A program made the position numbers and the translations under genes. The notes under the pieces were generated by a model. It worked only from the letters and a program-made list of their open reading frames with translations, was not told the DNA's origin and ran no database searches. 64,000 bases of DNA, taken from the NCBI GenBank assembly GCA_024693045.1, contig JAILLQ010000019.1:1-64000 (forward strand), in the 5' to 3' direction. Origin of the DNA: Treponema sp. (lineage in GTDB: Bacteria > Spirochaetota > Spirochaetia > Treponematales > Treponemataceae). Positions 44,234 to 46,620 of the stretch are shown here, piece after piece. Numbering within the stretch: the first letter of the stretch is position 1; every line of letters begins with the position of its first letter.

Positions 44234-44319
44234 GATAAATTGAATTATTCTGAAATGACGATTTATTGTCAATGAAATTACGCTTTTAATTGTATATTTA
44301 TGCAATTTCGGGATTAAAA

Positions 44320-45309
44320 ATGGAAAAAAATAACATAAACGAAGTTGAATTGGAAAATGTTCGCAGTCTAGTAGAAAAATGTCGCCAGGAAGCAAAGAAA
44401 CGCCTTATTGGCCAGGAAGAACTGGTTGAAGGAATTTTGATAGCCTTTGTTGCTGGCGGACACGTTTTGCTTGAAGGCGTTCCGGGTCTTGCAAAGACTT
44501 TGGCTGTAAAAACTTTTGCAGAAATTAGTGGTTTGGATTTTAAGCGTATCCAGTTTACACCTGATTTGCTGCCTGCTGATGTGAGCGGAACTTTGATTTA
44601 TGAACAGGCTAAAGGTTCCTTTAGTGTTCGTAAGGGACCAGTTTTTTCAAATGTGGTTCTTGCTGATGAAATCAACCGTGCTCCAGCAAAAGTTCAGTCA
44701 GCAATGCTGGAAGCGATGGAAGAAAAACAGGTAACAATCGGTGAAGATTCTTATAAATTGCCGGAACCTTTCTTCGTTCTTGCAACTCAGAACCCTATTG
44801 AACAGGAAGGTACCTATAATCTGCCAGAGGCTGAATTAGACCGCTTCCTCTTGAAACTTACTTTGTCATATCCATCTGCAGAAGATGAAATCAAGATTGT
44901 AAAAACCCAGGGGGCAGCTTCTAAGGTTCCTGTAAATCAGGTTCTGTCAGCAAAGGATTTGATTCGTTTTAGAGAATTGAATAATCAGATTGTTTGTGAT
45001 GATAAAATTGTAGAATACATAGTTCAGATTATTTCTGTTACAAGAAAGTCAGAAAAAAAGCAGTCTGAGCATGATATAACCCGTTACATTACTTTTGGGG
45101 CATCTCCTCGAGCAGGAATTGCTATTTTGCAGTGTGCAAAGGCAAAAGCTTTGCTGGCTGGTCGTTCTTTTGTTCTTCCTGAAGATGTAAAAGCTGTTGT
45201 TCCATTAGTATTAAGGCACAGAGTAGTTCTTTCGTATGAAGCTGCCGCCGACAGCATCAGTGCTGATGATATTATAGCAAAGATTTTGGATTTTATTCCG
45301 GTACCTTAG
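44320..45309 (+). CDS. MoxR-family AAA+ ATPase
   Basis: LLEGVPGLAKT, FKRIQFTPDLLPADVSG, DEINRAPAKVQSAMLEAMEE, ATQNPIEQEGTYNLPEAELDRF. Confidence 0.95.
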   Translation: MEKNNINEVELENVRSLVEKCRQEAKKRLIGQEELVEGILIAFVAGGHVLLEGVPGLAKTLAVKTFAEISGLDFKRIQFTPDLLPADVSGTLIYEQAKGSFSVRKGPVFSNVVLADEINRAPAKVQSAMLEAMEEKQVTIGEDSYKLPEPFFVLATQNPIEQEGTYNLPEAELDRFLLKLTLSYPSAEDEIKIVKTQGAASKVPVNQVLSAKDLIRFRELNNQIVCDDKIVEYIVQIISVTRKSEKKQSEHDITRYITFGASPRAGIAILQCAKAKALLAGRSFVLPEDVKAVVPLVLRHRVVLSYEAAADSISADDIIAKILDFIPVP

Positions 45310-45655
45310 AAGCGGAATAACCTCTTCTGAAAGAGCAAACTTGTTCTACGCTTCTAATCAGTTTTCTGACGAAAACTGAAGAACTTGTTCCAAGAGCCGA
45401 AATAACATCTTCTGAAAGAGCAAACTTGTTCTACGGCTCTAATCAGTTTTCTGGAGAAAACTGAAGAACTTGTTCTGGGGAGAGGAATAACATCTTCTGA
45501 AAGAGCAAACTTGTTCTACGCTTCTAATCAGTTTTCTAGAGAAAACTGAAGAACTTGTTCTGGGAGCTTAGAGCCGGAATATCAGTTCTGAAGTAGCAAA
45601 CTTGTTCTACGGCTCTAATCAGTTTCCTGACGAAAACTGAAGAACTTGTTCTGTA
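45308..45655. repeat. Four-copy imperfect tandem repeat with conserved inverted-repeat substructure
   Basis: Shared core AGCAAACTTGTTCTACG(C/G)(T/C)TCTAATCAGTTTYCT-nn-CGAAAACTGAAGAACTTGTTC-like sequence recurs four times; right-arm starts at 45349, 45434, 45529 and 45610. Confidence 0.93.
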
Positions 45656-45702
45656 AGAGGGACTAGGGGTTTGGGTAATAATAAAAGTGATAGGTAGTTT
45701 AT

Positions 45703-46620
45703 ATGCAGCATCTTATTGCAGGTTCTAGAGATTCTCTTTCTCAAAAGGCAAGTTATTTGCGCGTTTGTGCAAGACATCTGGCGGATTCAATGAAATCGGG
45801 CGGATTTCGTTCGCTTTATCATGGCCAGGGAATTGAATTTGCTGGAGTACGCGAATATTTGCGTGGAGATGATGTAAGGTCAATAGACTGGAATGTAACC
45901 GCACGAATGGGAAAACCCTATGTCAAAATGTTTGAAGAAGACCAGGAACTACAGATTTTTTTGATTGTGGACAGGTCTTCTTCTATGTTTATAGGTTCAA
46001 AAGGACGTGTAAAATACGAAACAGCAGCAGAAGTAGCCGCTCTTTTAACACTGGCAGCGGAACAGAACGACAGTCCTGTTGGAGCAGTTTTCTTTGATGG
46101 TAAAATACATTTTTCCTCAAAACCAGAAGCTGGTCGAAGTCAGTCTATGCATCTTCTAACAAAACTAGACGAAGTAGAGCATATAGAAAGGGGTTCTGTA
46201 ATGGGAAATGCCCTAAGTGGAGCCGCTAAGATACTTCGACACCATTCTCTTGTATTTATTCTTTCTGATTTTAGAAGCAGCGGTTGGGAAGAGCCATTTA
46301 AAATTCTTTCACAAAAAAATGATGTTGTTGCTGTTCAAGTAACAGATTCAACCGACTGGGAACTTCCTGCAATGGGTACAGTTCCTTTTGTAGACAGCGA
46401 AAGTGGTAAACGGCTGGTACTTCCAACACTTTCTTCTATATTTAAGTCTGCCTGGAGAGATGATTACAGGAAAAGAAGTTCAAAATTAGAAAATTATTGT
46501 ATCCGACATGGAGCCCGCTATTTTTCTATTTCTACTGAAGAAGATGCAGTAAGAAAATTAACTGATTTTTTTGCCTCTCGTTTTAAATATTCTTCGCCTG
46601 TAAGAGGTGCTGGAAAATGA
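45703..46620 (+). CDS. DUF58-family protein
   Basis: GIEFAGVREYLRGDDVRSIDWNVTARMGKPYVKMFEEDQEL signature. Confidence 0.93.
   Translation: MQHLIAGSRDSLSQKASYLRVCARHLADSMKSGGFRSLYHGQGIEFAGVREYLRGDDVRSIDWNVTARMGKPYVKMFEEDQELQIFLIVDRSSSMFIGSKGRVKYETAAEVAALLTLAAEQNDSPVGAVFFDGKIHFSSKPEAGRSQSMHLLTKLDEVEHIERGSVMGNALSGAAKILRHHSLVFILSDFRSSGWEEPFKILSQKNDVVAVQVTDSTDWELPAMGTVPFVDSESGKRLVLPTLSSIFKSAWRDDYRKRSSKLENYCIRHGARYFSISTEEDAVRKLTDFFASRFKYSSPVRGAGK

Follow-up and report, generated by a model that had tools for sequence, protein, structure and literature searches.

The gap between moxR and the DUF58 gene of this Treponema sp. carries four tandem double-hairpin units, and comparison of sequences places the array in a previously unlisted repeat family specific to the genus. 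The array is probably a REP-like repeat of a new kind, and not a switch dedicated to the moxR-DUF58 operon. As a likely history, a double-hairpin repeat of the REP/BIME-like kind arrived at this site in this lineage and multiplied in tandem; it has neither REP tags nor attC cores nor, in the related species G028, a Y1 transposase. One unit of the genus family very probably landed at the moxR stop codon in the window lineage and was then amplified in tandem. Movement between sites is read from the dispersed copies and from the species without them. If this is true, a palindromic repeat family found across the genus exists that is not part of the REP-RAYT system. Its clear rule of position, the stop codon, would have to be accounted for by any mechanism of spread.

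The array at the moxR stop codon

The window is the whole stretch of DNA that was analysed (64,000 nucleotides; its genome is designated G000). The first-pass annotation had described four related units in an operon gap of about 390 bp. These are present at 45308-45652, in a gap of 393 bp from the moxR stop (45307-45309) to the DUF58 start (45703). This is the sole wide gap of the operon, the remaining junctions of the moxR-DUF58-VWA genes being gapless or overlapping. Unit-to-unit identity is 80-91%, with spacings of 85, 85 and 91; TRF reports 4.0 copies at 45313-45659 (score 449), and the repeat core occurs at 4 places against 0.06 expected. Matches to R1, a covariance model built from four elements of G028 only (another species of the genus), are included in the following list of features.

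44290..45309, + strand: moxR (AAA_3 ATPase), upstream gene; Pfam AAA_3, 5e-64; the TAG stop at 45307-45309 overlaps the first stem
45308..45652, + strand: array of four double-hairpin units, delimited by sequence, TRF and R1
45308..45390, + strand: unit 1; R1 match 45308-45381, 31.1 bits, E 7.6e-5
45308-45355, + strand: first hairpin (HP1) of unit 1; arms AGAAGCG 45308-45314 and CGCTTCT 45349-45355
45359-45378, + strand: second hairpin (HP2) of unit 1; CAGTTTTC-TGAC-GAAAACTG
45380-45390, + strand: tail of unit 1; AGAACTTGTTC
45393..45475, + strand: unit 2; R1 match 45393-45466, E 3.4e-4; HP1 arms AGAGCCG 45393-45399 and CGGCTCT 45434-45440; HP2 45444-45463; tail to 45475
45478..45560, + strand: unit 3; R1 match 45478-45551, E 0.0095; HP1 left arm damaged (AGC missing), right arm CGCTTCT 45519-45525; HP2 45529-45548; tail to 45560
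45570..45652, + strand: unit 4; R1 match 45570-45642, E 0.01; HP1 arms AGAGCCG 45570-45576 and CGGCTCT 45610-45616; HP2 45620-45639 (one C.A mismatch); tail to 45652
45703..46620, + strand: DUF58/VWA gene, downstream of the array; Pfam DUF58, 1.3e-53

The left arm of unit 1 takes its first two bases from the moxR TAG (its final AG), so that the array begins inside the stop codon and not after it, a small correction to the earlier description. The compensated change of the outer stem is as had been described: AGAAGCG/CGCTTCT in unit 1 against AGAGCCG/CGGCTCT in units 2 and 4, with two adjacent pairs changed on both arms. The suspected loss of 3 nt from the left arm of unit 3 was also borne out, AGAGG standing in place of AGAAGCGG while the right arm CGCTTCT is unchanged. 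The short palindrome GAAC-TT-GTTC is more aptly described as a stem of 4 bp, AGAA/UUCU, capped by a CUUG loop. Units 1 and 2 fold better than their shuffles (z -4.4 and -3.3), and units 4 and 3 marginally so (z -2.1 and -1.8). Rfam 15 contained no family at or above the gathering score for the array. No terminator-like site (a G+C-rich hairpin followed by a T tract) was found inside the array, and promoter-like sites around it are at the random level.

Between the moxR stop and the DUF58 homology, 29 relatives have a gap of -1 to 115 nt. The broader model R2, built from 27 diverse members with the window included, gave no confident match in the moxR-DUF58 gap of these relatives (best 18.1 bits, E 0.13). 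At least four of them (loci L025, L031, L033 and L035) have other, unrelated palindromes directly after the moxR stop, in longer gaps: ATGCTGAAACAAGTTCAGCATGACG in G015, CCCTGAGCTTGTCGAAGGG in G026, GGAAATCGCAAGCGATTTCC in G027 and GGAAATTGCGAGGCAATTTCC in G031. Since several relatives carry other palindromes there, the site behind the moxR stop is a recurrent home of unrelated palindromic repeats. On this comparison, the window array is one such landing and does not belong to the conserved make-up of the Bat operon.

The repeat family and its place at gene ends

In 525 kb of the window genome, the four window units are the best matches to R1, all at full length (model 1-76) and with E 7.6e-5 to 0.01. 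The units belong to the family because this model, built without the window, recovers all four of them; their scores under R2 are not evidence, the window being part of that model. R1 matches 20 of the 196 genus genomes, and R2 matches 72. In a phylum sample, R2 matched 15 of 296 genomes, 14 of them in the genus and one in the same family, and in an order-wide sample R1 matched only five genomes outside the genus, all weakly. No description of the family was found in the literature, as far as open-access full text goes.

The unit plan is an HP1 of about 48 nt followed directly by an HP2 of about 20-26 nt (core AGTTT/AAACT), about 75 nt together, and a tail of 10-18 nt. The G028 unit is very strongly folded, with an HP1 of about 50 nt abutting an HP2 of about 26 nt (z to -10). 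HP2-like hairpins of the form CAGTTTTC-N4-GAAAACTG occur in 9 of 200 genus genomes and in none of the reversed control; in G024 and G004 the same-arm hairpin stands behind a long stem, right at a stop codon. Units are often in tandem, and arrays with a period of about 75-104 occur in G028, G010, G055, G102, G098 and G193. Members sit behind purH, an OmpA-like gene (four units right behind it in G010), transporters and many other genes. Two further places were found by model in the window genome: C22:2140, with two units after purH, and C30:95037. In G028, contigs C3 (end of L062) and C79 (start of L064) both break off within the same compound array of hairpins; arrays thus seem to break assemblies, and copy numbers in draft genomes may be underestimates.

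Simpler searches gave less. Nucleotide BLAST with unit 1 returned only the four array copies in the window genome and fragments of 18-35 nt in relatives. The fragments of 20-23 nt in G024 and G004 are real family members; those at L010, L012 and L014 lack this structure and seem to be matches by chance or to coding sequence. When 85,000 genomes were scanned for an exact 18-nt sequence, there was one match, about the chance level. RNAalifold on a MAFFT alignment of all members found no structure because the arms were misaligned, and the covariance model resolved it.

R1 matches in the sampled part of G028 were grouped into 47 arrays. Of these, 21 start between -2 and +2 nt from a same-strand stop codon and one at +4 to +60, the null being 2.0% of random intergenic positions. 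The next gene is on the opposite strand (convergent) in about 13 of the 21 anchored arrays; as this is more than half, the sparing of a downstream ribosome site is not the sole reason for anchoring. Anchoring is weaker outside G028, where 17 of 57 arrays, with ORFs called on short pieces, have either edge within -4 to +6, about 2-fold over the two-edge null (about 0.065 per edge). A start at the stop codon is therefore frequent in the family, not universal. The window array has it at -2, like three G028 arrays whose stem supplies the AG of TAG. Part of the near-stop signal is generic, because terminator-like hairpins lie near stops in both genomes profiled in the hairpin-density control; one of the profiles is given no weight because of an edge effect. 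At L164, L166 and L168 of G028, some elements have a different dispersed repeat (...CACAGATAAAC) in front of them where others have a stop codon.

Array growth can be followed behind a purH-like gene, which we take to be purH from its C-terminal sequence. The arrays after its stop codon are located as follows.

L135:1492-1662: post-stop array of the purH-like gene, window genome (G000:C22)
L138:860-1250: post-stop array of the purH-like gene, G055
L126:1487-1770: post-stop array of the purH-like gene, G102
L202:2090-2270: post-stop array of the purH-like gene, G098

The four species have unit types in common (stems GACTTGGG, GAGACACGGGC and GAGATGGGC), in differing numbers and order. Units of these arrays start with a copy of the gene end CCAYCATTAA, and G055 has two full purH ends (FTGIRLFHH-stop) that differ at synonymous positions only. 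Similarly, in G140 and G130 a gene ending in MKPVL-stop has another such end about 67 nt further on (L133 and L209, minus strand, about 1400-1580 and 1990-2156), and each stop end is the 5' arm of a palindrome. This suggests that units are added on the side nearest the gene and capture its end in the process. Within the window array, no copies of the moxR gene end were found. Such capture is not general, since neither the window array nor most G028 arrays have a gene-end copy. The purH arrays, with gain and loss of unit types among four species, are a natural system for array growth.

Pair types and upkeep of the palindromes

Covariation is strong throughout the family. In alignment A7, 14 of 30 pairs have double changes, with 61 double-change cells against 15.6 in shuffles; the figures are 20 of 30 pairs and 81 cells against 19.5 for A8, and 25 of 30 pairs and 186 cells against 64.5 for A9. 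Slid controls of all three have far lower double-change counts. Both these counts and those of wobble pairs rest on alignments that were fitted to a model favouring standard pairs. Among 87 members, HP2 has 774 Watson-Crick, 1 G.U and 4 A.C cells, and the outer P1 stem has 626, 10 and 7, respectively, with all four Watson-Crick types common. In tRNA stems of the same loci and genomes, 8.4% of pairs are G.U, although this control comprises only 12 tRNA genes. Because the outer stems are nearly free of G.U and A.C, unlike tRNAs, homogenisation of the arms at the DNA level is favoured over RNA-only selection.

Moves from one Watson-Crick pair to another that skip wobble intermediates and are alike on both strands are what copying of one arm onto the other should produce, a process proposed for RNA hairpins (PMC8794818). 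The hairpins of that study likewise have compensatory changes of several bases on both arms, with no wobble steps between; they are RNA genes, whereas those of the genus family are dispersed repeats. Here, the hairpin would form in single-stranded DNA during replication and one arm would be copied from the other. We lean towards such arm-to-arm copying (template switching) as the main process that keeps the outer stems perfect palindromes; it would also account for the adjacent double change between unit 1 and units 2 and 4. Templated copying had been one suggestion of the first-pass annotation, and the near absence of G.U and A.C in highly variable stems favours it.

The inner part of HP1 is different. 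On the sense strand, G.U is well above A.C there (50:5, 101:20 and 26:9), many of these cells being inherited and not independent. In G028, the inner stem has a conserved AAGTTGACTTT...AAGTTGACTT (e.g., L062:8416-8447) with a tandem U.G/G.U wobble on the sense strand only, and this conserved tandem GUUGAC/GUUGAC wobble makes up part of the excess. The excess points to some selection on the sense RNA, and upkeep at the DNA level and at the RNA level may both act. For RNA discovery, a caution follows from strong covariation in stems whose pair types look DNA-homogenised: taken by themselves, the compensatory changes would wrongly have passed for proof that the RNA is functional.

Other explanations and known systems

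Intercistronic stem-loops are an established means of uncoupling cistrons. The array could thus be a functional RNA whose hairpins are under selection in the moxR-DUF58 mRNA, where they would act in processing or stability and set the ratio of MoxR ATPase to DUF58/VWA protein. The sense orientation at a stop codon within an operon, the strong folds, the covariation and the G.U excess of the inner HP1 stem agree with this explanation. It is nevertheless unlikely, as no relative among 29 has a unit at this gap, the family is also found behind unrelated genes, the outer stems are strand-symmetric and nearly G.U-free, and unit 3 is damaged yet retained. The dedicated RNA for ATPase:VWA stoichiometry proposed in the first-pass annotation found no specific support for the same reasons of distribution, while its other proposal, a tandemly amplified non-autonomous palindromic element, is in accord with the dispersed, often tandem relatives across the genus and with the 29 relatives that lack a unit here. 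Dispersed copies and a lack of covariation had been named beforehand as counting against a folded element; the former were found and tell against the pathway-specific reading only, and covariation is present. A VNTR, formed by simple duplication in situ of a local hairpin that belongs to no wider family, would explain the tandem arrangement, the sole locus found in the window genome by nucleotide BLAST and the unit boundaries at purH, which include the gene end. Model matches at C22 and C30 and in 72 genus genomes, together with recognition of the window units by the G028-only model, make it very improbable. They contradict its 'no wider family' part; duplication in situ is kept as the amplification step.

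REP/BIME elements of the GTAG and CGTC super-families are dispersed extragenic palindromes, single or in tandem clusters near gene ends, with large mosaic clusters (PMC3733652). The genus family likewise consists of dispersed extragenic palindromes, tandemly clustered and near stop codons, and unit 1 supplies bases of a TAG, much as flanking ORFs often owe their TAG stop codon to a GTAG REP (PMC3733652). It differs from them in having two unequal hairpins per unit, a length of 75-95 nt and not 20-40, a range of one genus and sharper anchoring at stop codons in G028. Near the edges of 154 elements, REP tags are few and close to the random control (GTAG/CTAC 8+5, CGTC/GACG 1+4), most elements having no tag. 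A search for Y1_Tnp (RAYT) found none in G028, the richest in copies, nor in G183, G055, G102 and G087. A REP/BIME proper, mobilised by RAYT, is thus quite improbable. Integron attC sites, too, lie against stop codons and adopt hairpin folds, and the gene-end copies at purH and the MKPVL gene resemble integration that regenerates a gene end. However, R''/R' cores (RYYYAAC, GTTRRRY) at both ends were found in 0 of 154 elements and no cassette genes lie between units, so that cassette ends or another site-specific recombination site are the least probable of these explanations.

Under the preferred reading, a landed and amplified genus repeat, the moxR-DUF58 transcript would have up to eight stem-loops, starting within the footprint of the terminating ribosome. 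By analogy with REP/BIME sequences, their likeliest effect would be that of a passive barrier, which shields the moxR part from 3' exonucleases and lowers translational coupling or read-on to DUF58. A generic effect of the array on the transcript is plausible, and moxR/DUF58 expression may be affected; that the array has a selected effect at this operon is possible, with the balance somewhat against it. According to work cited in PMC12306157, E. coli REPs at no more than 15 nt from the stop codon lower translation. These share a stable hairpin within reach of the terminating ribosome; their sequence is unrelated, and the arrays here would have up to eight stem-loops. This translation effect and the REP-supplied stop codons are the best guide to what the array could do.

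To our knowledge, no anchoring at stop codons has been reported for organellar double-hairpin elements. These repetitive hairpin-forming elements (PMC2800124) are similarly short, with adjacent hairpins, and spread through intergenic DNA; they are organellar, unlike the genus family. REPINs (PMC3116915) are also mobile units of two palindromes, formed by two inverted copies of one REP and dependent on RAYT, whereas HP1 and HP2 are different hairpins. A more far-reaching view, held tentatively and rather unlikely at present, is that of a distinct class of stop-codon-seeking palindromic repeats. These would insert or accrete at the gene-proximal edge, could take the last codons of a gene (purH, the MKPVL gene), would spread without a Y1 transposase and have their perfect palindromes kept by template switching during replication, so that the messages of a whole genus would bear hairpins, subject to turnover, at their 3' ends.

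The window genome has a single Y1 (IS200-like) transposase gene (L081:1468-1930; G000:C47), at a contig end and not visibly linked to the hairpins. G028 also contains many ATGCTGAA...TTCAGCAT and ATTCCGAA...TTCGGAAT hairpins that resemble CGTC-type REPs (e.g., L105:6818-6883, L111:258-320 and L109:4725).
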